IMG/VR virus record: IMGVR_UViG_3300048582_000241
Location: 1-50,804 of that record
Direction: 5' to 3' (one strand)
Origin: a virus
Length of the DNA: 50,804 nucleotides
Position numbers and translations under genes: made by a program. The notes under the pieces were generated by a model, which saw only the letters and a list, made by a program, of their open reading frames with translations, made no database searches and had not been told where the DNA came from. Positions 26,801 through 41,588 of this stretch are shown piece by piece; within the stretch, counting starts at the first letter, position 1, and each line of letters opens with the position of its first letter.

Positions 26801-29006
26801 CTAGTATCATTTTTAAAATTGATTGGTCTAAATTTAATTCTTTGGCTTTTTTCTCATGTTCAACCATTTCATTTTTCAATTGCTTGTCTTTGGTTTGAAA
26901 TTGTTCAACATATCTATCGTATTCTTCGGGAGACATATCTCTTTCAGGAATGAATGTTTTTGGTTCATAACTATGTTCAGTATATCCTTGAATACGTAAC
27001 TGTCCATCAAAATCAACATAATAAGAAGCTCCCAAATCCGGTTCTTCATATAAAGAGGCGTTGGCAGAATATTCAATTCCATCGGTTATTTCTCCAAAGA
27101 GATCCATTTGGTGGATTTTACACAAACCTAAAGTCATGGCGATATCCGTATTCTTTTCGCCATAGTTCATTAAATCTAAAATGATTGGTTCAAAGAAATT
27201 CTTATAAATGTTTTCGCGAACTTCTTCTTTCAAACATTTAGTCAATGCATCTTTGACTGGGCCAGTCATTTTAATACCTTGCTTGTTACCGTGATTTTTG
27301 GTATTTAAATCTTCAATATCAGGTCGTGCCTTAATGTACTGGTGAGCACCAACGTCCTTAAAGTATCTGATAATGTGGAATTTAGTGTACTCAAATAGTA
27401 CTTCCATATCAAAATATATTGCAAATTTAACCGCATTTTCATAAGCTTCATCATCATCAAAAGAAGCATCCCCACGTTGATAAAGTAAACCCACAGGTTT
27501 ATTGAATTCTCTGGTGGGACCGGAATACACTCGGTAAGCAATGGCACAAAGGGAACTGACTTGTTCCGTAGTTTTTTTATCATCAACTTCTTCATCATAA
27601 CTATCACATGCACCAATATCAGGCTTGTATGGCAAATGCTCTGATTTTGGGTTAAGTGGCTGAGAATCAATCCATACGTGTCCATCGTCGTTGTTTTTAA
27701 AGATAACTTTTGCTTCTTTTTCAACTCGGATTTTGGTTTTTTCTTTTAAGTTTTTTGCACGTTGAAGTAAGTGTGTTATTTCAGGAGTATCTACCCATTC
27801 TAAAACTCCTTTGATAACTGGACTAGGAGCTTCGCCTTGATGAATTTTTTTTAATTGATACTGGAGCTTGATGAGATCAAGCAATCCTCCTTTAGTTTTA
27901 ATGAATACATCTTGAACAACAAGAGGATAAGACTGCAAGTGTTTGATATATGTTTCTTTGGCACGAGAAGCAAGTTTTCTTTTTTCTTCAATAAATTTTT
28001 TGGCAAGCTCTCTATTGGTAACTCCGGTCTCGTAATTAAAGAAAGATATTTTTTCTTTTGTTTTTTCATCTGCAATACCATCCCCAGGATAGTAATAATA
28101 AGCAGGAATAAATATTTGTTTTAAGTTGTGAGCAAAATGATTTTCCCACATTCTTTTGAAAGCAGCTCCACCTTTGTCAATTTCTCCACCAGTTCCGTAA
28201 AGCATTGGAATACCAAACTGATTATCTCCTTCCATTAAACATGGTTTAGTTGCAGCATAAGAATAATCTAAATTGTCAAACAAACCGATTTCTTCAAAAA
28301 TAACAAGAGAATAAGAACCTCCTTCAAAAGCGGAGCTATCCGCGTACATCGTTTTGATTCTAGCTGTAGAATTGATACCACATTTAGTTTCTTGCTTGTT
28401 GATACGATCCATGTAACCAAGTACGATTTCTTTATCATTATTGGTTATTTTTCCGTTACGGTAAGCTATATGAGTGTTGTCTAACGAGGATTTTAATTTT
28501 TCGGCAAACTCTTGTGCTTTATCATCTTTACCGGCACAGATACCAATTTTATTTCTATTGTAAAATGTAAGTTCGTAATTGGCATTAACAGCACCCATTT
28601 CAGATAATCCAATACGTCTGGGTTTAGCAATGATAAGGCCATAACCGTGTTCAATAGCTGCTTCAATTTCTAAAAATATCCAATGATCTAAATCACGATA
28701 GAAAGGAGTTCTAAGTACTTTACGCTTTGCCCCCGGAGGCATAAGTTCAATTTTTGTAAAGTTGAGGTAGTAAAAATGTCGGCCGGTAATCCGAGGCATT
28801 CCTTTTGGTTGGAAACCATTAATACAGTAGAAATCCATTTCATCCCAGAAATCATCATACTCTAAACTTCCGGGTTTTAATGTTTCTGAAAGATTTTTTA
28901 TCTTTTCATTATAAATCATCGGTTGATAAAGCTTTGGGTTCCATTTACTGGACCTTGACTCAACCTGAAAGTTTGGTACTTTTACTTTTGGAAATACTAG
29001 ATTCAT
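26769..29006 (-). CDS. terL: Terminase large subunit
   Basis: 745 residues. A Walker-A-like motif lies at about 127-136 (AKPRRIGLSE) and a Walker B with adjacent catalytic acid at about 233-241 (SLVIFEEIG). In the C-terminal half are nuclease-type acidic positions KPDIGACD (D463, D468) and GDASFDDDEAY. These are the ATP-driven packaging motor and the headful nuclease. Length is at the large end for the family. The start at 29006 lies just six bases after the T-run of a hairpin (29012-29042), which may limit or regulate its expression. Confidence 0.92.
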   Translation of the reverse strand: MNLVFPKVKVPNFQVESRSSKWNPKLYQPMIYNEKIKNLSETLKPGSLEYDDFWDEMDFYCINGFQPKGMPRITGRHFYYLNFTKIELMPPGAKRKVLRTPFYRDLDHWIFLEIEAAIEHGYGLIIAKPRRIGLSEMGAVNANYELTFYNRNKIGICAGKDDKAQEFAEKLKSSLDNTHIAYRNGKITNNDKEIVLGYMDRINKQETKCGINSTARIKTMYADSSAFEGGSYSLVIFEEIGLFDNLDYSYAATKPCLMEGDNQFGIPMLYGTGGEIDKGGAAFKRMWENHFAHNLKQIFIPAYYYYPGDGIADEKTKEKISFFNYETGVTNRELAKKFIEEKRKLASRAKETYIKHLQSYPLVVQDVFIKTKGGLLDLIKLQYQLKKIHQGEAPSPVIKGVLEWVDTPEITHLLQRAKNLKEKTKIRVEKEAKVIFKNNDDGHVWIDSQPLNPKSEHLPYKPDIGACDSYDEEVDDKKTTEQVSSLCAIAYRVYSGPTREFNKPVGLLYQRGDASFDDDEAYENAVKFAIYFDMEVLFEYTKFHIIRYFKDVGAHQYIKARPDIEDLNTKNHGNKQGIKMTGPVKDALTKCLKEEVRENIYKNFFEPIILDLMNYGEKNTDIAMTLGLCKIHQMDLFGEITDGIEYSANASLYEEPDLGASYYVDFDGQLRIQGYTEHSYEPKTFIPERDMSPEEYDRYVEQFQTKDKQLKNEMVEHEKKAKELNLDQSILKMILDEQQRGTLYQ

Positions 29007-29011
29007 ACGAT

Positions 29012-29042
29012 AAAAAAAAATAGGTATTTATAAAATACCTAT
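29012..29042 (-). terminator. Hairpin plus T-run between the accessory operon and terL
   Basis: A 10-pair perfect stem (ATAGGTATTT with AAATACCTAT, 3-base loop) is followed by nine A on the plus strand, that is nine T on the minus strand. It ends the 29057-30949 operon and sits immediately upstream of the terL start codon, so terL must rely on read-through or an unusual promoter. Confidence 0.75.
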
Positions 29043-29056
29043 CAAAATTAAACTTT

Positions 29057-29990: not shown

Positions 29991-30296
29991 CTAGGTGTAA
30001 TAGTCAATTTTTTTTATCCATATAGGACCAAAAATATTTTTTGTCACTTTTATAAACAAAAAATTTAAGTCTCCGGTTTCTTCGTTGTAAAAATAAAATT
30101 CAGAAATAAGTCCTTCAAATGGAACTATTTCTGATTTTATCTGAACAAGTCCTTTTACAGCATCATTATGAACAAAAGATTCAAACAAAAGTTGATCCAG
30201 TTCTGTGTTCTGTTTATCTATAAGTTTTAGGTTGTTTACATAATCAGAGTAAACTACGCTTTTGAATATATGAAGTCTTTGATTTTGAAAATTCAT
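29991..30296 (-). CDS. Small protein of unknown function
   Basis: 101 residues, start overlapping the upstream gene by 53 bases. Beta-rich C-terminus (GLISEFYFYNEETGDLNFLF). No recognisable motif; coupled in the operon ending at the terL hairpin. Confidence 0.45.
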   Translation of the reverse strand: MNFQNQRLHIFKSVVYSDYVNNLKLIDKQNTELDQLLFESFVHNDAVKGLVQIKSEIVPFEGLISEFYFYNEETGDLNFLFIKVTKNIFGPIWIKKIDYYT

Positions 30297-30588
30297 CGTA
30301 AATATCTTTAAATCTTCTATAAGTAAAAAAGTAATGATATTTTTCTGAAATGATTTCGTACTTCTCAGTTTTATTCAAATCAGGATAAACAATACTTAAA
30401 CACTCGTAGATAAAACCTATTTTGTAATTATTTTTATGTTTTTTAGATTGCTGCTCCGGAAAGTCCTCCGGAACAACAAATAAAATTAAACCCAGTTTTA
30501 ATTTTTCAAAAAGATAGTTTCTTGTCGCGACATTAAGATTGTTTATTTCCGAAGGATCAGATATTTCTAAACTATTGTGAAGTATCAT
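30244..30588 (-). CDS. Small protein, terminase-small-subunit candidate by position
   Basis: 114 residues, basic and helical in the second half (YPDLNKTEKYEIISEKYHYFF, RRFKDIYDEFSKS). The build, a short helical basic protein three genes upstream of terL, could suit a small terminase DNA-binding subunit, but no helix-turn-helix is certain. It overlaps its upstream neighbour by 17 bases. Confidence 0.45.
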   Translation of the reverse strand: MILHNSLEISDPSEINNLNVATRNYLFEKLKLGLILFVVPEDFPEQQSKKHKNNYKIGFIYECLSIVYPDLNKTEKYEIISEKYHYFFTYRRFKDIYDEFSKSKTSYIQKRSLL

Positions 30589-30949
30589 CTGTTTTTGATT
30601 TAATAACTTTCATTGGTTTTTGGGCGTTTTGCTTTGCTCCAATGATTGCTTGATTGGCAATTGTGTTTTTTGCTTTTACTGTGTAATCAGTAAATTTTTC
30701 GTACTCCAATTTAAAATTCAAATCAGTTAAAACTCTTTTTTCAATTTCAAGTTGAATAGCATTGTAGATGTCTTGACAGTCTTGAATTTTCTGAATTGTT
30801 TCCGGTTCGTACACATCAGATTTAAAATGCTTTGAAGCTTTTCTTGCATTGTACAATAATTGCATTAAAGTATTCAAATCATTAATGTAAACACCTAATT
30901 TCTCGGCGTATGTTTGAAGATCGGTGGTTGAGATTTTACTAAAGTCCAT
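30572..30949 (-). CDS. Helical protein opening the dyad-promoter operon upstream of terL
   Basis: 125 residues. I start at MDFSKISTTDLQTYAEKLG (30949), because the promoter element TATCTTTG lies 18 bases upstream and a longer frame from a TTG at 30970 would run into it. The protein is helical throughout with a Lys-rich C-terminus. Function unknown. It is the first gene of a five-gene operon ending at the hairpin before terL. Confidence 0.5.
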   Translation of the reverse strand: MDFSKISTTDLQTYAEKLGVYINDLNTLMQLLYNARKASKHFKSDVYEPETIQKIQDCQDIYNAIQLEIEKRVLTDLNFKLEYEKFTDYTVKAKNTIANQAIIGAKQNAQKPMKVIKSKTDDTSQ

Positions 30950-30967
30950 ATTTGTTATAATTTTAAA

Positions 30968-30991
30968 CAAAGATAACGGAAATTATTTCAT
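30968..30991 (-). promoter_or_regulatory. Dyad-box promoter A
   Basis: On the minus strand the box ATGAAATAATTTC is followed, 16 bases from its first base, by TATCTTTG. The dyad replaces the usual -33 TTG. It drives the 30949-29057 operon and abuts the terminator at 30994-31018. Four other sites in the window share the same box and spacing. Confidence 0.75.
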
Positions 30992-30993
30992 AT

Positions 30994-31018
30994 AAAAAAA
31001 GCTTTCCGTAGAAAGCTT
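30994..31018 (-). terminator. Terminator after the DUF2829-like gene
   Basis: Perfect stem AAGCTTTC with GAAAGCTT (loop of four) and seven T on the minus strand. It overlaps the stop codon of the gene at 31017 and runs directly into dyad promoter A. Confidence 0.8.
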
Positions 31019-31313
31019 ACATATATTCTTCTTGTTTTTGAATCCAGTCAGAAGCAAGGAGATCTTGATTTGTTGGAGTCCATATCTGAACAGTTCCATC
31101 TTTGCACACTTTTCGAACTTCCGGCATCCGTGTAACAGTAAACGCATCCCCGAGGTCAAAAAAACTTGTCGCTACACCATTCACGTTTTCTCTAGTGTGT
31201 TTGGTCATATCCAAGTTTCCTGAAATTACATGAATACATTCTTCTGAATCCCAACACTCGCGAAGTATAGCTGCTCCTTCTAAAACTAAATTAAATGCTT
31301 CTGGAAATCTCAT
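31017..31313 (-). CDS. DUF2829 / Tad2-like protein, divergent copy
   Basis: 98 residues from MRFPEAFNLVLEGAAILREC (start 31313). It shares the DUF2829 layout with the next gene upstream: F-x-EA near the N-terminus, G-x-x-x-x-R-x-x-W, and a C-terminal WTPTNQDLLASDW that parallels [13 protein letters not shown]. Tad2, a DUF2829 protein, binds the cyclic ADP-ribose signal of Thoeris defence; whether this copy binds the same or another nucleotide is unknown. It has its own TAnnTTTG element (31332-31339) behind a terminator. The call rests on motif pattern and tandem position. Confidence 0.62.
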   Translation of the reverse strand: MRFPEAFNLVLEGAAILRECWDSEECIHVISGNLDMTKHTRENVNGVATSFFDLGDAFTVTRMPEVRKVCKDGTVQIWTPTNQDLLASDWIQKQEEYM

Positions 31314-31331
31314 AGCTTTTGATTTAAAGTA

Positions 31332-31339
31332 CAAATATA
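31332..31339 (-). promoter_or_regulatory. -7 element TATATTTG between the two DUF2829 genes
   Basis: TATATTTG begins at the last T of a terminator's T-run and lies 18 bases before the start at 31313. No dyad box accompanies it, unlike the five dyad promoters nearby. Confidence 0.5.
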
Positions 31340-31366
31340 AAAAAAAACCTCTCATTATGAGAGGTT
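31339..31366 (-). terminator. Terminator between the two DUF2829 genes
   Basis: Nine-pair perfect stem (AACCTCTCA with TGAGAGGTT, 3-base loop) followed by nine T on the minus strand, just after the stop at 31374. Confidence 0.82.
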
Positions 31367-31373
31367 TAATTTT

Positions 31374-31685
31374 TTAATCTAATATGCACCAATCTTCGGC
31401 TAGCATATCTGTTTGAGAAGCAAGCCAACCATTAACAATAGTTCCATCTGCTGCTTTCATACATAAATATGCTGTAAATGGAATTTTTGCTCCAGCAATA
31501 GCATCTTTAGTTAAATAATCTTTTACAGATTGAGGTAATGATTTTACGTTTGGAATAAAATCAACATCTAATGCATCTGCAGGTCTTTGGAATACAAACA
31601 TTCCTTTTCCGTTCCAACCTTCTCTAGCAATTAATTTGCCTTGTTTTACAGCTTCAATAGCTGCTCCAAAATTTTGATTTTTCAT
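31374..31685 (-). CDS. tad2: DUF2829 protein, Tad2-family anti-Thoeris candidate
   Basis: 103 residues. The sequence matches the DUF2829 layout closely: [20 protein letters not shown], then NGKGMFVF near residue 26, an aliphatic middle, [16 protein letters not shown], and the C-terminal [13 protein letters not shown]. Tad2 proteins of this family sequester the gcADPR messenger made by ThsB and so block Thoeris abortive defence. It follows the KTSC gene by two bases and is the last gene of the operon opened by dyad promoter B. Family assignment is strong; anti-Thoeris activity in this phage is inferred. Confidence 0.82.
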
Positions 31686-31687
31686 GA

Positions 31688-31957
31688 TTATAAATTTAAT
31701 TTGTGTTCTCCGACTTTTTCGTATTTCAATTCTTTATTTTTTCTGATATTGGCATCAAACCATGAACCTTTTTCTTTGGTGCCAAATATTTCAGTAAATT
31801 TTTCTCTAGTAACCGGCCAGTACTGATACAGTACATTATTTGGAAACATTACCTGAATGAAAGGAGTACCTGTCTTTTCATCCACATCGTGCCCGATTGC
31901 AGATAGCAATTTTGAATAAGGCACATCATACATTGTTTTATTAAACTTGAAAGCCAT
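31688..31957 (-). CDS. KTSC-domain protein
   Basis: 89 residues starting at [12 protein letters not shown] (31957), chosen because it follows the phosphoesterase stop closely (17-base overlap). An upstream extension would lie wholly inside the phosphoesterase. The layout S-x-x-x-x-IGHD, [34 protein letters not shown] fits the KTSC domain, a small beta-rich fold often appended to nucleic-acid enzymes or found alone in phages. No biochemical role is established that I can assign. It sits between a DHH phosphoesterase and DUF2829. Confidence 0.7.
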
Positions 31958-32876
31958 TTGGAAATATCTTTTTAATGTCTTTGTTCGGCAATATAAAACC
32001 GCATGCTTGTGGGTGGCCGCCGCCGCCAAAGCATTTTGCGATTGACAAAATATCTACATCTTTAGTAGTGTACAAGCTAAACTTCCAAGTCCCATTACCA
32101 TTGTAAACAAACGCCAACATAGCATCGTGGATCTCGGAAACATAATGACCGTTAAAAGTGTTTGAATTAAAGAAGTTTGAATTGGCACAAAGTATATTCA
32201 ATCCGTTGTGATTTATCTCAAACTTGTTGGCCATAATGGATTGATTTATTTTTTCCTGATACTCTAAAATAGCTTTACCAAGAGCTATTTTTTCATCAAT
32301 ACTGATTTGATAGATATCAACATCTTCCGGTTTTGTGTACGTTCTCATTCCATATTGGAAAGGTAACGTTCCGTTATCCCAGTCAAAATCTGCTATTAAA
32401 GCTTTTTCTCCTTGTCTCCAAGTGTCGTACTGGCCGATCAAACGAATGATTTTTTTAATACCATCATTGATATAATCATTGTATTCTACCATTTGAACAA
32501 TCTCCGCACCGGAAAGAACCGATGAATAGTAATAAGTAAAACCAAGGTCTTTTACTTCATACATGGTAATAAGTCCGGTAAGCTCCGTTTTCTCCAAAGC
32601 AATTTTGTTTGTTTTGGCATATTCAACAAAAGCATCAAAAGCAGACTTGTGATGATCGTACCAAAATAATCTTTCTGCATTTTTGGCCAAAGTAAACATA
32701 TCTTCCATCGGTAACGATACGTCTGCCATACCTACAATTTGATTTTTACATTGACGAATATCAAACTTTTCGCCATAATCATAGCCGATTAGTTCAGGAT
32801 CCTGAAATGCTAATCCGGCAACAACACCCGAAAAGATACCATCTAAATCTTTTGAGTGATAAAAAAATTTTCTCAT
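31941..32876 (-). CDS. DHH/DHHA1 family phosphoesterase
   Basis: 311 residues from MRKFFYHSKDLDG (32876). DHH motifs appear in order: HSKDLDG (residues 7-13), ADVSLP, YDHHKS (metal-binding DHH), then an aspartate in IGQYDTW, and C-terminal GGGGHPQACGF of DHHA1. The family includes nanoRNases and phosphodiesterases that cleave short oligonucleotides or cyclic dinucleotides. A start at 32912 is possible but would overlap promoter B. It begins the operon leading to KTSC and DUF2829. Substrate is not readable; involvement in degrading defence nucleotides is a hypothesis. Confidence 0.85.
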   Translation of the reverse strand: MRKFFYHSKDLDGIFSGVVAGLAFQDPELIGYDYGEKFDIRQCKNQIVGMADVSLPMEDMFTLAKNAERLFWYDHHKSAFDAFVEYAKTNKIALEKTELTGLITMYEVKDLGFTYYYSSVLSGAEIVQMVEYNDYINDGIKKIIRLIGQYDTWRQGEKALIADFDWDNGTLPFQYGMRTYTKPEDVDIYQISIDEKIALGKAILEYQEKINQSIMANKFEINHNGLNILCANSNFFNSNTFNGHYVSEIHDAMLAFVYNGNGTWKFSLYTTKDVDILSIAKCFGGGGHPQACGFILPNKDIKKIFPNGFQV

Positions 32877-32901
32877 AGTGTAATGATTTATAATTAGAAA
32901 A

Positions 32902-32925
32902 CAAATGTACATGAAATTATTTCAT
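32902..32925 (-). promoter_or_regulatory. Dyad-box promoter B
   Basis: ATGAAATAATTTC plus TACATTTG at the standard 16-base spacing, 25 bases before the DHH start codon and directly behind a terminator T-run (32931-32939). In this copy the dyad extends to CATGAAATnATTTCATG. Confidence 0.78.
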
Positions 32926-32930
32926 GTAAC

Positions 32931-32960
32931 AAAAAAAAACCCACCGATTAAAGTGAGTTT
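32931..32960 (-). terminator. Terminator ahead of dyad promoter B
   Basis: Stem AAACTCAC with GTGGGTTT (one G-U pair) followed by nine T on the minus strand. It lies about 80 bases past the chaperonin stop and ends that transcript. Confidence 0.72.
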
Positions 32961-33010
32961 TTTTGGAATGGTAAACAAAAGTATAAAACAACATGAATAA
33001 GAGAGAGATT

Positions 33011-33041
33011 CAAATATACAAATTATTTTGATTCAGCAAAA
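33011..33041 (-). promoter_or_regulatory. Possible host-type promoter just past the chaperonin gene
   Basis: TTTTG at 33041-33037 and TATATTTG at 33018-33011 are separated by 18 bases, a good match to the housekeeping Bacteroidota promoter. No gene follows before the terminator at 32931-32960, so a short RNA of about 75 bases is possible; chance occurrence in AT-rich DNA cannot be excluded. Confidence 0.35.
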
Positions 33042-34673
33042 TTAATTATCCATATTTAAAGCTCCTCCTGTTGTTAAAACAATAGCTGCTATACTAACAG
33101 CGTTTAACAATGCGTTTTTTGGCACATCAAATGGATCAACAATACCTGCTTCAATTAAATTGCAGTAACGGTTAACTTTCATGTCGTACCCTTTTGTATA
33201 ACCATCTTCATTTGTTCTTTGCAAAAATTCATCAACTGTTTCTTTACTGATACCTGCATTTTCCATTATTTTTTTAAACGGAGCTTGTAATGCTTCTTTC
33301 AAAATGTACAAAGCAACAACTTCCTCGTGGTTGTTACCATCTTGTTTTAAAATATCGGATTGTTTTAACAACGACAAACCTCCTCCCGGTAGGAACCCTG
33401 ATTTGATTGCTCCAGAAACCGCATTGATAGCATCTTCAATTCTTAGTCGTTTTTCGTTAATTTCAACATCGTTGTATCCGCCGGCATAAACAATGGCATA
33501 TCCATTTCTCAATTTTGACAAACGAATTTTATGCAAGTTTGAAAAATAGTTATCATCAATTTTTGAGGTTATATCTTTTTCAATTTCTTTAATTCGTAAA
33601 TCTAAACGAGTTTTGTCTTGCGTTTCGTTTTTCAAAATAAAGTGTTCTGCATATACTTCTAATTCATCAACAACACCAAAAACACTGTATCGCATATTGT
33701 CAAAATTATCAGTTCCTTCAAAGTTGACAACAGTAGCATCTACATAAGTAGCAATATCTTCCGCATACAATTGTTTTTCAAATTCCGGACCAGGCAGTCT
33801 TAAAGCAGTAATGTTTAATCCTTGCAGTCTATTTTCCATCAACGTAGCCAAAGCATGACTGTTAATGTCTTTGGCAAAAATAACAAGCTGTGGATTCTCT
33901 ACTGCAGATTCTTCTTCCGATTCATAAGCTAGTTGCAATATTTGAACGATACGGTCCGGTTGAGAAATCTCCTCGTTGGTTATAAAAACCAAAGCATCTT
34001 TCATAATGGCAGCTTTTTTCTGTTTGTGGTTAGTCAAAGTAAAATTGATATAACCGCTGTCGTATTTGAAACCTTTGTGAACTTTCATATCATCATAATG
34101 GTTTTCTCCAACAGCTGCAGTAACATATCCATCATAATCAATAGCTTGAAAAGCATCTGAAATTAATTTTGACAATTCAACGTTACCGTTACACGAAACA
34201 GAAGCAATGTCTTGTATCTGCTTTATTTTTTGATTTTCATCAGTACTAATAAAAATACGTTCCAGTTCTAAGCTTTTGATAATTTCTCTTGTGTACTTAA
34301 TGAGGTTGTCTTTTAGCATTACCACATTTAAGCCTGGGTGCTTTTCAATTTGATCAAAACCTTCTTTTAATAATGCCGCCGCCAAAACACTTGCCGTTGT
34401 AGTTCCATCACCGGAAAGCATGTTTGTTTTCAAAGCAACTTCCTTGATCATCTTGGCACCCATGTTTTTTAAATCATTGTCCAAAACAATTTCCTTTGCA
34501 ATAGAAACACCATCATTGATGATTTTTACATTCGGTCCGTTTCGAATAATAATGTTTTTTCCTTTTGGCCCTAACGTGGAACCAATGATTTCTGTTGCTT
34601 CTAAAATACCTTCCAAAATACCTTTGGTGGCTTCCTTAGCACTGTAAGTCGTTTGTTTTTTAATTTCACTCAT
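33042..34673 (-). CDS. groEL: Phage-encoded GroEL-like chaperonin
   Basis: 543 residues, full length for group I chaperonins. Equatorial ATP-site motifs are intact: LGPKGKN (34-40), NDGVSIAKE with D54, and GDGTTTASVLA from G88. A C-terminal RIEDAINAV corresponds to the second catalytic Asp region and is followed by GGG. The apical domain is much more divergent than the equatorial one, and the C-terminal GGM-repeat tail of bacterial GroEL is absent (ends LTTGGALNMDN). It starts one base after the GroES-like gene. It probably folds virion or other phage proteins; the client is unknown. Confidence 0.93.
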   Translation of the reverse strand: MSEIKKQTTYSAKEATKGILEGILEATEIIGSTLGPKGKNIIIRNGPNVKIINDGVSIAKEIVLDNDLKNMGAKMIKEVALKTNMLSGDGTTTASVLAAALLKEGFDQIEKHPGLNVVMLKDNLIKYTREIIKSLELERIFISTDENQKIKQIQDIASVSCNGNVELSKLISDAFQAIDYDGYVTAAVGENHYDDMKVHKGFKYDSGYINFTLTNHKQKKAAIMKDALVFITNEEISQPDRIVQILQLAYESEEESAVENPQLVIFAKDINSHALATLMENRLQGLNITALRLPGPEFEKQLYAEDIATYVDATVVNFEGTDNFDNMRYSVFGVVDELEVYAEHFILKNETQDKTRLDLRIKEIEKDITSKIDDNYFSNLHKIRLSKLRNGYAIVYAGGYNDVEINEKRLRIEDAINAVSGAIKSGFLPGGGLSLLKQSDILKQDGNNHEEVVALYILKEALQAPFKKIMENAGISKETVDEFLQRTNEDGYTKGYDMKVNRYCNLIEAGIVDPFDVPKNALLNAVSIAAIVLTTGGALNMDN

Positions 34674-34674
34674 G

Positions 34675-34944
34675 TTATTGTTTTTTATGTAATCTGATTT
34701 TAAAGGTTTCTACAGAAAGATTATCGTTGTCAATTTTGTAGCAGTCACTACGCAAAAAACCAACAGTATCTCCTTTTTTATATTTGTGGTTTTCAGGAGC
34801 AAGAACAACAGTTCCAAAAACTAAATTCTCGTTTTTTTGCAATGAACTGGAAACAATACCTCTTGCACTTTTAAAAGTACCGGTAGGAGAGTAAACAATT
34901 AAACAGCCGTTTTCGGCACTGAAATCTGAAAAATTAATATCCAT
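34675..34944 (-). CDS. groES: GroES-like co-chaperonin
   Basis: 89 residues, slightly shorter than bacterial GroES (about 95). The order GCLIVYSPTGTFKSARGIVS, with the mobile-loop tripeptide GIV, then NLVFGTVVLAPENHKYKKGD and DTVGF, matches the GroES beta-barrel. The region corresponding to the roof loop is reduced. It is directly followed by the chaperonin gene (one intervening base), which strongly supports a functional pair. Sequence divergence from bacterial GroES is high. Confidence 0.8.
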   Translation of the reverse strand: MDINFSDFSAENGCLIVYSPTGTFKSARGIVSSSLQKNENLVFGTVVLAPENHKYKKGDTVGFLRSDCYKIDNDNLSVETFKIRLHKKQ

Positions 34945-34963
34945 ACTAAAAAATTTGTTTTAC

Positions 34964-34988
34964 AAAAAAAGGGGCAAAACCCCTTTTT
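34964..34988 (-). terminator. Terminator between the tRNA and the chaperonin pair
   Basis: Stem AAAAAGGGG with CCCCTTTTT around a four-base loop, with T-runs on both strands. On the minus strand it ends the tRNA transcript and leaves only about 20 bases before the GroES start, so the chaperonin genes depend on read-through or an unseen promoter. Confidence 0.8.
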
Positions 34989-35028
34989 AATAATTAAAAA
35001 AATAATACACTCAACTTAAAATATTTTG

Positions 35029-35102
35029 TAGCAAGGCCGGGATTCGAACCCGGGACCTGTGGATTATGAGTCCACCGAGCTAGCCAACTGCTCTACCTTG
35101 CG
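35029..35102 (-). tRNA. tRNA with CAU anticodon (Met-elongator or Ile2 type)
   Basis: Cloverleaf on the minus strand: acceptor CGCAAGG with CCTTGCT, D stem GAGC/GCTC, anticodon stem GTGGA/TCCAC with loop CTCATAA (anticodon CAU at 35066-35068), variable loop AGGTC, and T arm CCGGG-TTCGAAT-CCCGG. The three G-C pairs of an initiator anticodon stem are absent, so it is not fMet-type. Position 1 to 72 is a C-U mismatch, and the CCA end is not encoded. It lies 12 bases downstream of dyad promoter C. Elongator Met and lysidine-modified Ile cannot be told apart here. Confidence 0.9.
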
Positions 35103-35114
35103 ATTTGTTATTGA

Positions 35115-35138
35115 CAAAAGTAATGGAAATAATTTCAT
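35115..35138 (-). promoter_or_regulatory. Dyad-box promoter C (tRNA promoter)
   Basis: ATGAAATTATTTC and TACTTTTG with the 16-base spacing; the tRNA 5' end begins 12 bases beyond the -7 element. The dyad box ends one base from the stop codon of the 109-residue gene at 35139. Confidence 0.75.
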
Positions 35139-35468
35139 CTACAAAAAAAATAATATTTTTTTTAATCTTTCAACTTCCGGAGTTTGGTCTTTGTCTTTTA
35201 AGCACATAGGAGTGCCATCGTGATGATTATGATTTAAATCTATAATAAGTAAAAAATTATCAATATAAACGAGCTTATGAAAATCATTTGTAAGTTTTGC
35301 AATTTCTTCTTTATCAAAAGACTTATGGTTACTTAACTCATAGCACTTATAAAAAAAAATTAAGTACCAAACACCATTATATTCTTTTCTTAAATTTGTT
35401 TTAAAAATAAGTGATGTTTTTTTAATCAAAGTCTCTACCATAGGGTAAATAGCATCTGTTTGTTTCAT
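35139..35468 (-). CDS. Small protein of unknown function
   Basis: 109 residues, basic, rich in Leu, Phe and Tyr, with a helical start (YPMVETLIKKTSLIFKTNLR) and a His-rich NHNHHDGTP segment near residue 80. No signal peptide. It overlaps the upstream gene by four bases (ATGA). No family recognised. Confidence 0.5.
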   Translation of the reverse strand: MKQTDAIYPMVETLIKKTSLIFKTNLRKEYNGVWYLIFFYKCYELSNHKSFDKEEIAKLTNDFHKLVYIDNFLLIIDLNHNHHDGTPMCLKDKDQTPEVERLKKILFFL

Positions 35469-35665
35469 GTTTTTAAATCATCTTTTTTTTGTTCAACATA
35501 AGGCCTTTCGCTTTCCTTCCAAACATCATTAAACCAATTTGATTCCGGAGGAACCTCTCCTCCAGTACCAAAAATGGTAATCTTATCCTTTAGGGTATCC
35601 CGTAACTTCGGGATAACAGAATTCCATAGCTTTTGTTTTAATGTATTCTCTGCAGTATTTTCCAT
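35465..35665 (-). CDS. Small protein of unknown function
   Basis: 66 residues starting at MENTAENTLKQKLWNS (35665). The upstream gene overlaps it by 83 bases in another frame, a long but not impossible overlap for this compact genome. It has helical N- and C-termini and a central GTGGEVPPESNWF turn. No motif is recognised. Confidence 0.5.
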   Translation of the reverse strand: MENTAENTLKQKLWNSVIPKLRDTLKDKITIFGTGGEVPPESNWFNDVWKESERPYVEQKKDDLKT

Positions 35666-36074
35666 ATATAAAATAAATATCAATTATCGTGTTCGCGTGT
35701 GTGCGGAAATTATTCTCATATAACCAATGCAAAAATTCTTCTTTATGAGGAACAATAACAAAAACACCATCTATCACACGTAAATCAAAATCAGGTGCCT
35801 CATAATCATAATCATTAATCTTTCTGAAATTTAATAAAAACCGACCAACATTTAAAGTCACAACACACTTGATCTTATCAACTTCTAACAATTGTGATTC
35901 AAATTCAGTCACGTTATGCTCAAAGGCCATACGAGCTAAAAACTTATAATACAGTTCCTCTGCCCTTTTGTAGTCCGTAGCAGCTCTGTCCTCATACAAA
36001 AAAACCATTCCCTTAGTGAAATAGTCCTGAACTGCTCTGTCAATCTTTCTAGTAGTTACTCCCGTTCTTCTCAT
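35583..36074 (-). CDS. Protein of unknown function
   Basis: 163 residues from MRRTGVTTRKIDRAVQDYF (36074); this start overlaps the preceding stop as ATGA, which is why I prefer it to a longer frame beginning at 36140. Helical N-terminus and beta-rich middle (DLRVIDGVFVIVPHKEEF). The N-terminal 30 residues could be a DNA-binding helix pair. No family is recognised. Confidence 0.5.
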   Translation of the reverse strand: MRRTGVTTRKIDRAVQDYFTKGMVFLYEDRAATDYKRAEELYYKFLARMAFEHNVTEFESQLLEVDKIKCVVTLNVGRFLLNFRKINDYDYEAPDFDLRVIDGVFVIVPHKEEFLHWLYENNFRTHANTIIDIYFIYGKYCREYIKTKAMEFCYPEVTGYPKG

Positions 36075-36523
36075 TTGTTCCTTGAATTTTTGTTTAAAAA
36101 AACATGACACTCGCTTGGAGTGCAATTTGCCATAACCCATTCCTTTAATGGTTCTTCATCAGAAAACCTCTCTCCCAAATAATAAGAAGCAACCAAATCC
36201 TTTGGAGCCTTATTGAAAATAGAATTTAATATTTCTGTCTCAGTCTTTTCAGGTTTCAGATTAGTACCTATGAATTCCTCCCTTTTTACCCAACGTAACC
36301 TCGTGCCGCCACGTACCCGATCTAAAACAGGTACATGGCTCTCCAACATCTTTGTGTACCAAACGATATTCTCAATATCCCTCTTGCACAATTTTCTCTC
36401 AACGCCAATAGCATCAGTTATCCACACCTTTTCTACCAACTCCTCTATTAATCCGCTATCGCTTGAGATAAAAGAATTCAAGTCACGCTTCGGTAAATCA
36501 AAATTTAATAGCTCCTTACTCAT
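36071..36523 (-). CDS. Protein of unknown function
   Basis: 150 residues, mixed charge, with a short Arg-rich segment (RVRGGTRLRWVKREEF) near residue 70 and a helical C-terminus. Coupled to the next gene by ATGA and preceded by a 7-base gap. No recognised motif. Confidence 0.5.
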   Translation of the reverse strand: MSKELLNFDLPKRDLNSFISSDSGLIEELVEKVWITDAIGVERKLCKRDIENIVWYTKMLESHVPVLDRVRGGTRLRWVKREEFIGTNLKPEKTETEILNSIFNKAPKDLVASYYLGERFSDEEPLKEWVMANCTPSECHVFLNKNSRNK

Positions 36524-36530
36524 AACTAAT

Positions 36531-36974
36531 CTAAATAACTAAATCTAAATGGGCCCGGTTATGATCCACCAACTCAACATTTTTTTCCAAAAGGTCTAAA
36601 AGGTTGTTCATGTGCTCTACAAAACATTCCGGCTCTTTCATCGGAACAGATTCCTCATTCTTAAGATTTAAAGCATAAATCTGATTTAATTTAGCTTGTG
36701 TCAATGAGGCACTATAACTCAATTGAGCAGTCAATCTAGATAACCTTTGCTCAACAAGACAAAAATGTCTCGGATTCTCTTTTGTGGAATCCATAATTCC
36801 TGCGTTTAACTCGTTGTTTTTAAATTTACTTTCCATATTCTCTGTTTTTAATTGATTATTAACTTTAAATAAAGCATCCGTATCCCGCCAATGTTTAGTC
36901 AATGCTAAACAACTCTCGCAAAAATTCTTCCACAATACAGCCTCATGCATCTGACATAATTTACAAATACCCAT
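36531..36974 (-). CDS. Zinc-ribbon-headed helical protein
   Basis: 147 residues from MGICKLCQMHEA (36974), chosen because promoter D's -7 element lies 24 bases upstream. CxxC at residues 4-7 and another at 19-22 (CESC) form a probable four-Cys zinc site. The rest is a long, mostly helical domain with coiled-coil potential. It opens the operon 36974-35139. Zinc-headed small proteins in phages often bind nucleic acid or host enzymes, but no target can be inferred. Confidence 0.6.
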   Translation of the reverse strand: MGICKLCQMHEAVLWKNFCESCLALTKHWRDTDALFKVNNQLKTENMESKFKNNELNAGIMDSTKENPRHFCLVEQRLSRLTAQLSYSASLTQAKLNQIYALNLKNEESVPMKEPECFVEHMNNLLDLLEKNVELVDHNRAHLDLVI

Positions 36975-36998
36975 AACTAAAATTTTAAATTCATAATT

Positions 36999-37022
36999 CA
37001 AAGATACATGAAATAATTTCAT
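36999..37022 (-). promoter_or_regulatory. Dyad-box promoter D
   Basis: ATGAAATTATTTC and TATCTTTG at the 16-base spacing, 24 bases before the zinc-ribbon gene start, with the dyad continuing as CATGAAATAATTTCATC on the plus strand. The terminator at 37028-37058 lies immediately upstream. Confidence 0.8.
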
Positions 37023-37027
37023 CTAGC

Positions 37028-37058
37028 AAAAAAAAAGCCGCTAGATTACTAACGGCTT
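37028..37058 (-). terminator. Terminator after the lipoprotein gene
   Basis: Ten-pair stem (AAGCCGTTAG with CTAGCGGCTT, one G-U) and a T-run of nine on the minus strand, 22 bases after the lipoprotein stop and directly ahead of dyad promoter D. Confidence 0.82.
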
Positions 37059-37079
37059 AAACATAAAAAAAAATAACCT

Positions 37080-37496
37080 TTACCATCCGCCGCAACTGCC
37101 ACCCCACGAAGTAGTAACGCAATAAACAGATTGACTAAAATGATCCAAAAGCATATATGAACCCGATGTCTCGCAACCAACTATATTTATCGTATATGTA
37201 GAACTCCCATTAGTGTAAACTCCCGGTCCACACTGCCAATAAGCAACAACAACAGGACGAACACGCGAAGCATCTAAATATGTTTTTGGTTTAGATAAAT
37301 CAACAGGATTGTTCTCATCCGAATCAAAAAATACAAATAACGAATCCCCAGTCTGAGTATCCTCTACCAAAGCATAATTATCAGAATCTCGCTCCGAAAA
37401 TTCAACCAAACCCTTTTTCTCCTCAACAACACCAACGTCGTCACTGCAAGAAAATAACATAAAACCTAAAACACCAAACAAAATCAATTTTTTCAT
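37080..37496 (-). CDS. Predicted surface lipoprotein
   Basis: 138 residues from MKKLILFGVLGFMLFSCSDD (37496). The signal ends in a lipobox with Cys at residue 17, followed by S-D-D, which is the kind of acidic export signal that places Bacteroidota lipoproteins on the cell surface. I prefer this start to one at 37550 because the earlier frame crosses the promoter and terminator. The mature part is acidic, then beta-rich with Cys pairs near the C-terminus (WQCGPG, GCETSG, YCVTTSWGGSCGGW). Last gene of the minus-strand half; has its own -7 element at 37524-37531. Phage lipoproteins often block superinfection, but that role is inference. Confidence 0.75.
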   Translation of the reverse strand: MKKLILFGVLGFMLFSCSDDVGVVEEKKGLVEFSERDSDNYALVEDTQTGDSLFVFFDSDENNPVDLSKPKTYLDASRVRPVVVAYWQCGPGVYTNGSSTYTINIVGCETSGSYMLLDHFSQSVYCVTTSWGGSCGGW

Positions 37497-37523
37497 GATA
37501 AATAAATTTTTAATTAATAACCC

Positions 37524-37531
37524 CAAATATA
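37524..37531 (-). promoter_or_regulatory. -7 element TATATTTG of the lipoprotein gene
   Basis: TATATTTG, 27 bases before the start codon at 37496 and at the end of a terminator T-run. No dyad box is at the usual place. Confidence 0.5.
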
Positions 37532-37559
37532 AAAAAAAAAACAGATCCATCCCTGAATC
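37531..37559 (-). terminator. Possible terminator in the divergent region
   Basis: A six-pair stem (GATTCA with TGGATC, one G-U; loop GGGA) followed by ten T on the minus strand. It would end RNA started from dyad promoter E or from 37579-37586. Confidence 0.5.
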
Positions 37560-37704
37560 CGTTTCCCTTTTTTCTTTGCAAATATAATCCCATCGGCATT
37601 GTGGCTTCGTGATGCAAACCTGAGAAAGTTTTTAACGTACCGCATTACAAGTTCACCAACAGTTCAAGCAGAAGTCTCGGTTACAGTCCGCCTTGATTAC
37701 TCCG
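37560..37704 (-). ncRNA. Possible short RNA between dyad promoter E and the 37531 terminator
   Basis: No gene of usual size lies between promoter E (37705-37728) and the terminator at 37531-37559, yet both signals are oriented the same way, so an RNA of about 150-165 bases is expected. A 43-codon frame starting MRYVKNFLRFASRSH runs from about 37646 through the terminator, but its tail is low-complexity and it is probably spurious. A second TATATTTG is at 37579-37586. Existence of the RNA is inferred from signals only. Confidence 0.35.
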
Positions 37705-37728
37705 CAAATATAGTGGAAGTTTCTTCAT
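37705..37728 (-). promoter_or_regulatory. Dyad-box promoter E (variant)
   Basis: ATGAAGAAACTTC and TATATTTG at exactly the same 16-base spacing as the other four copies; the dyad arms changed together (GAAG with CTTC), so pairing is preserved. It is preceded by a run of ten T, as in the other copies, but no gene starts for over 200 bases downstream. Confidence 0.65.
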
Positions 37729-37895
37729 GTGCAAAAAAAAAATTTTTTTGTCGGAGAAAGAGGCATATCCAATAAATATCCCCTCCCTCTCACTTCGTTT
37801 TCCCCCAGTCCCCCCCTAAGTAAACGGAATAAAAAGAGGGACCCAAATGGTTTCTATTGGATACGGCTCTCCATTAACCCCAAACCGTTATCGTT
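37729..37895. other. Non-coding rest of the divergent region between the two transcription halves
   Basis: Together with 37497-37728 this 399-base spacer separates minus-strand from plus-strand genes. It holds an A7/T10 inverted run near 37731-37749, a C-rich stretch (37784-37817) and a 15-base segment GTAAACGGAATAAAA at 37820-37834 that recurs at 39235-39249. No TAnnTTTG element is seen for the plus-strand gene at 37896, so its promoter is unrecognised. Confidence 0.6.
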
Positions 37896-38150
37896 ATGAA
37901 ACGTTCTCTTGTTAATGGCATCTCTAGTGTACTAGGTGGTGTCCACTTTGCTGCTTCTTACACAGCAGAAAAAGCTTTCATTGCTGAAATGAAGCTTAAA
38001 CAAATCCACCTTGGCCAGTCGGCCGAGGACATTGCTGCTAATCGTCGTGCTATTACCCTTGCACGTATTGATCGTCTAGACAGTCTGTTCAAATCTAAGG
38101 AACAGATTCAGGCTGAACTTGTGATCGTTGAACTTAACTCTAACGTTTAG
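37896..38150 (+). CDS. Small protein, paralogue of the gene at 40145
   Basis: 84 residues. A short hydrophobic start (MKRSLVNGISSVLGGVHFAA) is followed by a charged helix with the pattern S-x-E-D-x-x-x-x-R-R-A-x-T. The gene at 40145 shares MKR, LGGxHxA and S-x-x-D-x-x-x-x-R-x-A-x-T in the same order, so the two are paralogues. The start looks like a weak membrane or signal segment without a clear cleavage site. First gene of the plus-strand half. Function unknown. Confidence 0.6.
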   Translation: MKRSLVNGISSVLGGVHFAASYTAEKAFIAEMKLKQIHLGQSAEDIAANRRAITLARIDRLDSLFKSKEQIQAELVIVELNSNV

Positions 38151-38155
38151 TAATC

Positions 38156-38380
38156 ATGAGCACCAAAGTCTTCAACTCCGCTAAATACGGAACCGTTACG
38201 GTTACGTCTTCGACCCACAAACGTACTATGACAAAGTACGTTGTTGATAAAGTCATAACTCACGAGGAGGCTTGCATCATCCAGTTACAACTTGGATATC
38301 ATCCTCACGGCTATGGTGTTTATGGCTTCGAAACTAAATCAACCACGACATCATGGTGTCGTGGTAACTCTTGCGACTAA
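38156..38380 (+). CDS. Small protein of unknown function
   Basis: 74 residues, basic, beta-rich, with a C-terminal segment YHPHGYGVYGFETKSTTTSW and a final Cys pair (CRGNSCD). Five bases after the previous gene. No family recognised. Codon choice is richer in C/G endings than in most of the window. Confidence 0.55.
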   Translation: MSTKVFNSAKYGTVTVTSSTHKRTMTKYVVDKVITHEEACIIQLQLGYHPHGYGVYGFETKSTTTSWCRGNSCD

Positions 38381-38404
38381 TCTTTAATCTTAATCTTATA
38401 TCCT

Positions 38405-38710
38405 ATGAAACCATTCTTATTTATTGCGGCGATGTTTATCGGCATCGCCTTTGGTGGCATGATGGCCACCTATATCTTCTTCGGTCTAATGACATTAGCC
38501 GGATTGATCTTCCTTATCGAATCTATCTCATGGCTTCGATGGATCGTCTATCGTCTGAACTCATTCTTTGACATTGCAATCTTTGTATTGACTGTCATTG
38601 CTACTGTCAAGCTCGGTGTAACTGTTGCAGCTTCGCTCACTGTTGCCGGACTTGGCTTCACTATGTTTTATCGTCCTTATATCAATCGTATTAAATCTAA
38701 AAAACAGTAA
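38405..38710 (+). CDS. Small polytopic membrane protein
   Basis: 101 residues with three or four hydrophobic segments covering almost the whole protein (about 3-22, 24-42, 45-66 and 67-88) and a basic C-terminus (NRIKSKKQ). Unknown function. It and the next gene form a membrane-protein pair. The first 60 bases of this region are 43% G+C by count, higher than the surrounding phage DNA appears. Confidence 0.6.
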   Translation: MKPFLFIAAMFIGIAFGGMMATYIFFGLMTLAGLIFLIESISWLRWIVYRLNSFFDIAIFVLTVIATVKLGVTVAASLTVAGLGFTMFYRPYINRIKSKKQ

Positions 38711-38712
38711 TC

Positions 38713-39162
38713 ATGATTCCATTCACACTCTTGGCTGCCTTTACAATATCATTTGTAATTGTGCTCAAATCTTATCGTATACATATACTATCTGATAAGC
38801 CTTTCAAATTCCCGTATCTACGGTTTGCATTAAATATGCTGTTGCTCACTCTATTCTACATGGTCAACCCAATTGTTGGCCTCATGTTTGGAATACTCCA
38901 ATGTATCTATCATTTCACTACGCTCTACATTATAGAGAAAGTTCATGAAATACAAGAGGATGAACAACGTCACATCGTTGGAGAGATTGATCCTATCGAT
39001 ATCATCCACCAACTAACAGAGGAATACATGGAGATCGAAGATCGAATAATCATCCTCGTTAACACTCCAAAACCTCACTCCAAAGAACTTGTCATGGAAT
39101 TCGTAGAACTCCGTAACAGACAATTCAGAATACTGGAGGAGTATCGTGAGCTACATTACTAA
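38713..39162 (+). CDS. Membrane-anchored protein with helical cytoplasmic tail
   Basis: 149 residues: two or three hydrophobic segments in the first 75 residues (FTLLAAFTISFVIVL, then ALNMLLLTLFYMVNPIVGLM) and a Glu/Ile-rich helical C-terminal half. Its last 38 bases overlap, on the opposite strand, the end of the minus gene at 39125. Function unknown. Confidence 0.55.
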   Translation: MIPFTLLAAFTISFVIVLKSYRIHILSDKPFKFPYLRFALNMLLLTLFYMVNPIVGLMFGILQCIYHFTTLYIIEKVHEIQEDEQRHIVGEIDPIDIIHQLTEEYMEIEDRIIILVNTPKPHSKELVMEFVELRNRQFRILEEYRELHY

Positions 39163-39559
39163 TGATATGCTCCGCTTGGGCCTGACTCAATACATTCAAT
39201 ATGTAGGGATTCACCAAATATTTACCTCGCTCAGGTAAACGGAATAAAATGAGCGATCCAACCATAGCGTTGATAGCTTCATAGTAATTATTCTTTCTCA
39301 TCAACAAACCACAACCACTATAACTCAAATTGATTGTCATTGACTTATCAATCCAATCAAGCTTTGTTTCGTTAAAGTGTGTTCGCGGTAATTTGTTGGC
39401 TATGTTCATCAGAACCAACAGCAAATCTCCATTGGTCCGGTCACTATTATTTAAATTCCAAATATTAAAATAGTTGTGACGAAATCTCCAATTGATTGCT
39501 ATGAAATGATTAACATTTGAAGAATATTTGTATTCTCGAAGGATTTTGTATATTTGCAT
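39125..39559 (-). CDS. Possible replication-initiator-like (RepL/winged-helix) protein, lone minus-strand gene
   Basis: 144 residues. The only minus-strand gene within the plus-strand half. The C-terminal region (LLMRKNNYYEAINAMVGSLI, then LFRLPERGKYLVNPYILN) resembles the end of a winged helix followed by the G-x-Y-x-V/I-NP signature of RepL-type plasmid replication proteins. The N-terminal LLLVLMNIANKLPRTHF could be the first helices. Three palindromes (39659-39765) lie just upstream of its promoter, a usual arrangement for initiator or repressor binding. The resemblance is weak; a transcription regulator is the main alternative. Confidence 0.45.
   Translation of the reverse strand: MQIYKILREYKYSSNVNHFIAINWRFRHNYFNIWNLNNSDRTNGDLLLVLMNIANKLPRTHFNETKLDWIDKSMTINLSYSGCGLLMRKNNYYEAINAMVGSLILFRLPERGKYLVNPYILNVLSQAQAEHIISNVAHDTPPVF
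39227..39256. repeat. Stem-loop with 15-base loop segment shared with 37820
   Basis: TCGCTCA at 39227-39233 pairs perfectly with TGAGCGA at 39250-39256; the loop contains GTAAACGGAATAAAA, which recurs at 37820-37834. It lies inside the coding region of the gene at 39125-39559. Confidence 0.6.
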
Positions 39560-39580
39560 AGTATAAATGCGTTAGTTATA

Positions 39581-39620
39581 AAAGTCGCCTCAGAGTTTCC
39601 CAAAACTAGGCGGCTTTTTT
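39581..39620 (+). terminator. Terminator / leader hairpin upstream of the minus-strand gene
   Basis: AAGTCGCCT with AGGCGGCTT plus an inner AGTTT/AAACT pairing, and a six-T run on the plus strand. It would stop plus-strand transcripts from 37896-39162. For the minus-strand gene the same hairpin lies in the 5' leader. Confidence 0.72.
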
Positions 39621-39627
39621 CGTTCTA

Positions 39628-39635
39628 CAAATGTA
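39628..39635 (-). promoter_or_regulatory. -7 element TACATTTG of the gene at 39125-39559
   Basis: TACATTTG on the minus strand, 68 bases before the start codon, with a TTG at 39652-39650 that is 14 bases upstream (short spacing). The palindromes begin about 25 bases further upstream, so proteins bound there could act on this promoter. Confidence 0.5.
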
Positions 39636-39658
39636 ATAAAAATTCCTTTCAATCCATC

Positions 39659-39765
39659 TTTCGGGTATCAATTTGATACCTGAAATAAAAAAGTTTCGGG
39701 TATCAATTTGATACCTGAAACTATTATTCACATATTTTTCGGGTATCAATCTGATACCTGAAAGT
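39659..39765. repeat. Three copies of a palindromic site (operator or iteron candidates)
   Basis: Copies with the core GGTATCAATTTGATACC (third copy GGTATCAATCTGATACC) are centred near 39672, 39707 and 39750, start-to-start spacing 35 and 43 bases. Each is flanked by TTTCG on the left and TGAAA on the right. The core arms GGTATCAA/TTGATACC are perfect 8-base inverted repeats about one base. The third copy's change lies just off centre. Confidence 0.85.
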
Positions 39766-40144
39766 TTTCAAACAAAAACCTCGCGAACCCCAGTAAAATC
39801 AAGGCTTCCCGAGGTTTCTCACGCGTGGAAAAGATCCAAAAGCTATATTAATAGTATCTTATTGGATCTTATTAAGATTATAAGAGAGATAGGAGATATC
39901 TCTATCTCTTACTCTTTGCCGTTTTCTTGTTAGATTCCTTTGGTATTAATTATAGTAACTGTTAAGATTACTTTTGGTTTATACTATGGTTATATACTTA
40001 ATAGGGAAACGAAAAAAAAAAAAAAAAAAAAGGGATTATATCTTTAAGTTTATTCTAGGATAATGCTTGGGGATATATATCTGGATTTAGTGTTTTAATA
40101 TTAACTATTCTGGGGACAGGGGTTATAACTGAACAATTATTATT
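39766..40144. other. Non-coding region with inverted repeats and an A20 run; origin-like
   Basis: No gene is found. The region contains an interrupted inverted repeat AAACCTCG (39776-39783) with CGAGGTTT (39810-39817), a perfect 9-base inverted repeat AAGATCCAA/TTGGATCTT (39831-39870), and a long near-palindrome centred on GAGATATCTC (39893-39902). It also holds an uninterrupted run of 20 A (40012-40031) and a leader segment (40101-40144) repeated before 40973. With the three palindromes and the initiator-like gene this is the best candidate for a replication origin or control region in the window, but no GC-skew or DnaA-box evidence is claimed. Confidence 0.5.
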
Positions 40145-40607: not shown

Positions 40608-40631
40608 TTATCATTTAAACTATTTATTATT

Positions 40632-40916: not shown

Positions 40917-40926
40917 TCTATTTATC

Positions 40927-41578: not shown

Positions 41579-41588
41579 TCATTTAATC

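Follow-up and report, generated by a model that had tools for sequence, protein, structure and literature searches.

A palindrome embedded in host-type promoters of a crAss-like phage lineage is a likely operator family

In the virus record IMGVR_UViG_3300048582_000241 of IMG/VR (50,804 nucleotides; this whole 50.8-kb stretch was analysed and is called the window below), five minus-strand promoters carry the same inverted repeat, or dyad, immediately ahead of the promoter element TAnnTTTG, which raises the question of what reads this dyad and with what effect on transcription. A preliminary description had proposed a phage-specific promoter class in which the dyad takes over the role of a missing -33 element. 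Our comparison of the window with related phages and with bacterial genomes suggests a different answer: the dyad is very probably a transcription-factor site that defines a regulon, and the factor is likely encoded by the phage. We propose that the dyad, TGAAATNATTTC(A/C), would be the operator of one dimeric regulator, and that this operator would occupy the spacer between -33 and -7 in host sigma-A promoters that are ordinary in other respects, as a rule 3 nucleotides (nt) before TAnnTTTG.

Results

Five promoters carry the dyad in the same register

All five sites, numbered 1 to 5 in rising coordinate (Table 1), match ATGAA-N5-TTC-N3-TAnnTTTG letter for letter at the positions originally reported, and no sixth copy of the composite was found in the window. 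The composite is not a product of base composition, as GAA-N5-TTC-N3-TAnnTTTG occurs five times in the window, whereas 300 dinucleotide shuffles contained 0.043 copies on average and never more than 1. When the distance between dyad and TAnnTTTG was scanned from 0 to 40 nt, a single peak was observed in the window, at 3 nt. As had been described, none of the late-block TAnnTTTG elements carries a dyad.

The dyad takes the form T-GAAAT-N-ATTTC-(A/C), and the letters fixed over the first 12 sites read T GAA A(T) N A(T) TTC (A/C) N N TA nn TTTG. Its flanks are slightly asymmetric, with a T ahead of the left arm in 13/13 sites and an A or C behind the right arm. Scaled to F. psychrophilum, in which TAnnTTTG was mapped at -12 to -5 (PMC9723704), the dyad core lies at -26 to -16 with its centre at -21, TTTG lies at about -36/-35 to -33/-32, and the +1 positions of sites 1 to 5 are predicted near 30963, 32897, 35110, 36994 and 37700, respectively. 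The earlier remark that both arms had changed together is true of site 5 (GAAG/CTTC), but in relatives inner positions are altered on one arm only (GAAAAAATTTC, GCAATTATTTC), and arm covariation was rejected as a general rule because of these one-arm changes.

The dyad promoters retain ordinary -33 and -7 elements

The claim that these promoters have no -33 TTG at the normal place was contradicted by the sequence: TTTG is present with spacers of 20, 19, 20 and 19 nt at sites 2, 3, 4 and 5, respectively, and only site 1 is without it (TTTT). Since TTTG stands at 19-20 nt in four of the five window sites and the dyad lies in the spacer downstream of it, the suggestion that the dyad substitutes for -33 recognition is unsupported. 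Across phages, an exact TTTG at 19-20 nt was found in 7/13 of the first dyad promoters and was absent from the other six, and a perfect TAnnTTTG (-7) is present in all 16 dyad promoters with the 3-nt spacing. In a filtered comparison within the same phages, which was small and made after the fact, -33 TTTG occurred in 6/11 dyad promoters versus 1/20 dyad-less promoters (Fisher p = 0.004). The dyad promoters are thus the more canonical ones, the opposite of what was first proposed.

The T-run described upstream of all five sites is indeed present, but it is no independent element: at sites 1, 2 and 4 it is the U-tract of a strong terminator, at site 3 it follows a hairpin that is weak and made of A/T, and at site 5 it is only an A/T tract; at 4/5 sites it ends in the -33 TTTG. 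Because it is mostly terminator U-tract, we rejected the T-run as an activator site or UP element. At two dyad-less promoters of the window (31339-31367 and 37531-37564, both on the minus strand), a terminator U-tract abuts TATATTTG and leaves no space for a -33 element. Fusion of terminator and promoter seems to be a general habit of this phage.

The dyad is shared by close relatives of the phage

The window is from a crAss-like phage of Bacteroidota. Its terminase (26769-29006) has 21-24% identity to crAss-like terminases, and its genes follow the same order as in Cellulophaga phage phi14:2, a crAss-like phage of the Steigviridae: structural block, portal, terminase, small genes and GroEL, and after these a divergent early block. 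The phage collection contained no DNA-level match to the window, and single-protein searches for related loci found nothing; relatives were recovered by alignment-based searches and by the motif itself.

A loose IMG/VR pattern scan with ATGAA-N5-TTC gave 17 matches, none resembling a relative, and a tighter core, GAAATNATTTC, was used afterwards. A blind scan of 2.9 million IMG/VR contigs for TTTG-N5-6-GAAATNATTTC-N3-TAnnTTTG returned two contigs only, L051 and L052, and both are relatives of the window (DHH phosphoesterase in both, chaperonin in L052, terminase in L051). Leaving out the -33 element gave 66 IMG/VR matches, among which these two and L135 were the only relatives (L135 proteins reach about 51% identity to those of L052); nearly all other matches have no T-run and resemble coding DNA of unrelated phages. 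A search by terminase alignment, which is independent of the motif, yielded the 73.6-kb record L149, whose terminase is 61% identical to that of the window and which has dyads in three promoters of this block, directly ahead of the terminase and each with a spacing of exactly 3 nt (GAAATAACTTC, GAAGTTATTTC, GAAATTTTTTC). In a palindrome-only scan of the window, L051 and L052, every perfect GAAATNATTTC is followed after exactly 3 nt by a perfect TAnnTTTG, apart from one copy in coding sequence at 30347, and the two one-off variants with a single altered arm likewise stand at 3 nt. In total, the exact 3-nt spacing between dyad and TAnnTTTG was seen in 16 promoters from 5 phages, with 5, 5, 2 and 3 copies per genome in four of the phages.

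No dyad was found in L148 (77 kb) or L151 (31 kb), both of which were scanned in full and have terminases of about 45% identity, nor in phi14:2 or two distant phages with a DHH gene (L055, L056). The element expected in relatives is therefore carried by close kin (L051, L052, L135 and L149) but not by more distant ones, and by these comparisons the dyad is a trait of one phage lineage.

The dyad is retained at promoters that are orthologous or equivalent in position. The promoter of the orthologous DHH phosphoesterase genes retains the dyad in the window, L051 and L052, and the operon just before the terminase retains it in the window, L051, L052 and L149. In the window, a dyad stands at the tRNA-GroES-GroEL unit, and in L052 separate dyad promoters precede the GroES gene and the GroEL operon; the first unit of the block has a dyad both at window site 5 and at L052 7486. 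Proteins behind these conserved promoters are roughly 40-60% identical, and the letters between the fixed positions have diverged. The dyad-controlled block of L052 also holds, between DHH and GroES, a gene for a 59-aa histone H1-like (Hc1) protein (4134-4313, minus strand).

In L135 the gene behind the dyad belongs to the replication block. At the L149 orthologue of this gene, a perfect palindrome of 19 bp, AGATGAAATTATTTCATCT, lies 12 nt ahead of TAAATTTG, the L052 orthologue has a near-palindrome 19 nt before its promoter and within a terminator hairpin, and further copies lie 7 and 14 nt before two other promoters of L149. These extra copies are probably genuine, and a strictly invariant 3-nt spacing was dropped because they look real. 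Strong palindromes are over-represented at non-coding positions in the window (p = 0.005), L052 (p = 0.0001) and L149 (p = 0.004), and not in L148.

Bacterial genomes hold no comparable set of sites

Among 300 Flavobacteriaceae genomes, a family outside which the host of this phage may lie, we found 15 dyad composites in 13 genomes, with at most 2 per genome. The form with a -33 element gave 24 separate single matches in 84,980 species genomes, many of them coding or in unrelated phyla. As no genome has a comparable site set, a host regulon was rejected for Flavobacteriaceae and is unlikely globally. Four Chitinophagaceae genomes (L033, L039, L040 and L049) have TTTG(T/A)TTAAGAAATGATTTCCTTTACTTTTG in common directly before a tRNA gene, and this sequence is a host promoter that fits the dyad form by coincidence. 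The proposal of a phage-lineage promoter class marked by the dyad was thus borne out, given that the relatives found by motif are crAss-like, that L149 was found without the motif and carries three copies, and that bacterial genomes have no such set.

A winged-helix-like protein is a weak candidate regulator

The gene of a winged-helix-like protein is present in all three large dyad-bearing records (window, L052 and L149), and no homologue was detected in the dyad-less L148. The structural model is poor, with a predicted local distance difference test (pLDDT) score of 51, and its best PDB matches are mainly winged-helix proteins, none of them significant (no Foldseek hit at E<=0.001). Its product is a weak candidate for the dyad-binding regulator. 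Upstream of the gene, both the window and L052 have a repeat of another kind, GGTATC...GATACC, so the target of the protein may be that repeat, and the protein may be a replication initiator instead. A conserved early protein (40973-41578) was set aside as a candidate because its model was too poor to interpret.

Three near-identical 27-bp palindromes, TTTCGGGTATCAATTTGATACCTGAAA, lie upstream of the winged-helix-like gene at 39659-39685, 39694-39720 and 39737-39763. Repeats of the GGTATCATAGGTGATACC type occupy the equivalent position in L052, ahead of its two winged-helix-like homologues, and the L149 record has none. By their appearance, the 27-bp palindromes are iterons, or operators for autoregulation, close to an origin of replication.

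Genes and transcripts behind the window sites

The distances reported downstream of the sites stand for four of them, with start codons 18, 25 and 24 nt away at sites 1, 2 and 4 and a tRNA 5' end at 12 nt for site 3, while site 5 is without a nearby start codon (Table 1). The gene behind site 1 has positional counterparts that are also behind dyad promoters in L051 and L052. Downstream of the tRNA of site 3, the GroES-position gene and GroEL are probably reached by read-through from this site. The transcript of site 5 is predicted to be non-coding, as it has no nearby start codon and no long open reading frame in three frames, and it folds with a terminator stem; Rfam matched only the tRNA and gave no match for this transcript.

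Table 1 Dyad promoters of the window and associated features. Promoter strings are written 5'->3'.
Feature	Position	Strand	Details
Site 1 dyad promoter	30968..30991	-	Dyad core 30979-30989; -7 TATCTTTG 30968-30975; TTTT replaces TTTG at -33
Terminator stem AAGCTTTC-TACG-GAAAGCTT	30999..31018	-	-8.1 kcal/mol; U-tract extends into site 1
Gene behind site 1, about 125 aa	30572..30949	-	ATG 18 nt past TTTG; opens operon leading to terminase
Site 2 full promoter	32902..32933	-	TTTG 32930-32933; dyad core 32913-32923; -7 TACATTTG 32902-32909; TTTG-TTAC-ATGAAATAATTTCATG-TACATTTG
Terminator hairpin immediately upstream of site 2		-	-12.4 kcal/mol
DHH phosphoesterase behind site 2	31941..32876	-	ATG 25 nt past TTTG; phrog_4771 E 1.3e-30
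Site 3 promoter	35115..35145	-	TTTG 35142-35145; dyad core 35126-35136; -7 TACTTTTG 35115-35122; TTTG-TAG-ATGAAATTATTTCCAT-TACTTTTG
tRNA-Met (CAT) from site 3	35028..35102	-	12 nt past TTTG
GroES-position gene (34675-34944) and GroEL (33042-34673)	33042..34944	-	Downstream of tRNA; GroEL phrog_5725 E 4.7e-103
Site 4 promoter	36999..37030	-	TTTG 37027-37030; perfect dyad ATGAAATTATTTCAT; -7 TATCTTTG 36999-37006; TTTG-CTAG-ATGAAATTATTTCATG-TATCTTTG
Terminator stem immediately upstream of site 4	37035..37058	-	-14.6 kcal/mol
Gene behind site 4, no assigned function	36531..36974	-	ATG 24 nt past TTTG; N-terminus MGICKLC...
Site 5 promoter, first of block	37705..37735	-	TTTG 37732-37735; variant dyad GAAGAAACTTC 37716-37726; -7 TATATTTG 37705-37712; TTTG-CAC-ATGAAGAAACTTCCAC-TATATTTG
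Predicted untranslated transcript from site 5, ~170 nt	37531..37700	-	Ends in strong terminator, stem about 37540-37564
Winged-helix-like protein gene	39125..39559	-	Homologues: two in L052, one in L149 record

Two other TAnnTTTG promoters of the window (29017-29050 and 39585-39635, both minus strand) are followed by a terminator-like hairpin that precedes the start codon of the terminase and of the winged-helix-like gene, respectively, and these hairpins are possible attenuators. The early block (37896-43000, plus strand) has no recognisable TAnnTTTG promoter ahead of its first genes, as expected if virion RNA polymerase transcribes this block. The related record L052 (77.7 kb) has a terminase at both ends and is thus near complete; it shows that the window is incomplete, as L052 additionally contains replication genes spanning about 25 kb and a gene of 3963 aa that occupies the virion RNA polymerase position. 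L052 also has genes of the PRTRC type (PRTRC_E, Prok_Ub, Prok-E2_D and ThiF) at about 30013-33464 on its plus strand.

Discussion

Occlusion, activation and other explanations

A dimer bound at the dyad would cover about -27 to -15, inside the polymerase footprint, and all dyad promoters would come under joint control, namely those of the chaperonin, the tRNA-Met, the DHH phosphoesterase, the pre-terminase operon and the small RNA. The most likely action would be occlusion of host RNA polymerase, by which intrinsically competent promoters would be kept silent or turned off during a particular phase of infection. In bacterial promoters, a site inside the RNA polymerase footprint is usually a repressor site. 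The canonical -33 TTTG in about half of the dyad promoters and the perfect -7 throughout indicate promoters able to work unaided, and together with some positional tolerance these elements favour occlusion, whether by a repressor or a timer; the extra copies at 7, 12, 14 and 19 nt show a freedom of position more in keeping with an operator than with a rigid contact to polymerase. Other points weigh on the opposite side. So strong a preference for exactly 3 nt would be more typical if the factor touched RNA polymerase, the dyad promoters are not all obviously strong, since some have no exact TTTG at 19-20 nt, and Pfam/PHROGs scans, which covered about 40 proteins each from L052 and the window, found no classical helix-turn-helix family. 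We consider the question of whether the regulator represses to be evenly poised, with repression or timing slightly ahead of activation, and the explanation as a whole, in which the dyads are operators of a phage dimer occluding host RNA polymerase at sigma-A promoters, could go either way.

Activation by the same regulator is a tentative possibility, kept in consideration by the exact 3-nt preference combined with the need of a lytic phage to hand its later genes to host polymerase. A phage activator could act at the dyad with host sigma-A, from inside the spacer and in fixed register with the -7 element, by a logic like that of MerR-type activators or of T4 sigma appropriation, and would hand the genome from virion RNA polymerase to host polymerase. 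The shared spacing of 16 promoters in 5 phages and the lack of TTTG in six of the first 13 argue for such an activator, as do the perfect TAnnTTTG elements, an excellent -10 being required in T4 middle promoters too (PMC2988021), and the dependence of a lytic phage with a virion RNA polymerase on host polymerase for later genes (PMC8375218). However, seven of these 13 promoters have -33 TTTG at normal spacing, dyad-less promoters of the same phages are usually without a -33 and show no substitute, probable copies stand at 7-19 nt, and Pfam recognised no MerR family member or MotA/AsiA relative among about 40 proteins of the near-complete L052 and the window proteins (the window lacks part of the phage genome). 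On balance, an activator of this kind is somewhat doubtful, and the specific version in which, in Bacteroidota, it diverts the host's sigma-A polymerase to a class of chaperonin/packaging genes is unlikely. Taken jointly, a host factor and the absence of any protein are improbable. A host regulator that binds the dyad and is exploited by the phage would suit the plain host-type promoter elements and the few single sites of the same form in Bacteroidota genomes, such as those before a tRNA in four Chitinophagaceae, but is very unlikely given the low number of sites per Flavobacteriaceae genome and the single matches among species genomes. If no protein were involved, the dyad could be a by-product of the copying of a terminator-promoter cassette or a DNA/RNA hairpin, and terminator, T-run, dyad and -7 do form a compact cassette at most sites. 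This is the least probable reading and hardly credible, because flanks, N3 spacer and terminator stems vary freely while dyad, register and TAnnTTTG are constant, because the dyad lies upstream of the predicted start site and would be absent from RNA, and because it is conserved across phages with such divergent proteins.

Comparison with known systems

The dyad promoters resemble Bacteroidota sigma-A promoters in their perfect TAnnTTTG, in the TTTG located 19-20 nt upstream in 7/13 and in start codon distances typical of the phylum; unlike these, they add a spacer palindrome that is outside the host consensus. Repeated phage repressor operators include lambda-type operators, mycobacteriophage stoperators and SPbeta operators. 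As in those systems, one sequence recurs at several promoters or junctions of one genome inside the polymerase footprint, whereas here there is one site per promoter, with no repressor gene identified and no integrase or lysogeny genes recognised. The spacer dyads of the MerR family are similar in being palindromes between both promoter elements in fixed register (here 16 promoters at 3 nt, with few probable exceptions). MerR promoters have an unusually long spacer. In contrast, the 19-20 nt of the dyad promoters is the canonical Bacteroidota -33/-7 distance (PMC9723704, PMC7366714), and no MerR protein was found. T4 middle promoters likewise have a phage-specific box at a near-fixed distance from a perfect -7/-10 that is common to a gene class. 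In T4, the MotA box lacks symmetry and is bound by a monomer; it has its centre at -30 and takes the place of the -35 (PMC2988021). The dyad described here differs in being centred near -21, in the -33 kept in most window sites and in the lack of a detected MotA/AsiA relative.

We are aware of no sigma-appropriation system described for phages of Bacteroidota, and the literature searched contained no operator or promoter dyad for crAss-like phages. Judged from sequence, the conserved family of promoter-embedded putative operators is real and, as far as this literature shows, new for crAss-like phages. The general principle of a repeated operator in phage promoters is familiar, and the mechanism is probably of a familiar kind.

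In crAss001, middle and late transcription is described as likely dependent on host polymerase (PMC8375218). If the dyad does serve activation, it would mark the switch from virion RNA polymerase to host polymerase in this crAss-like lineage. The timing of middle and late genes in crAss-like phages is hardly known, and a conserved cis element with base-exact predicted starts makes this timing testable. The dyad may also serve as a bait for finding its regulator and offers a candidate regulated promoter for Bacteroidota genetics.

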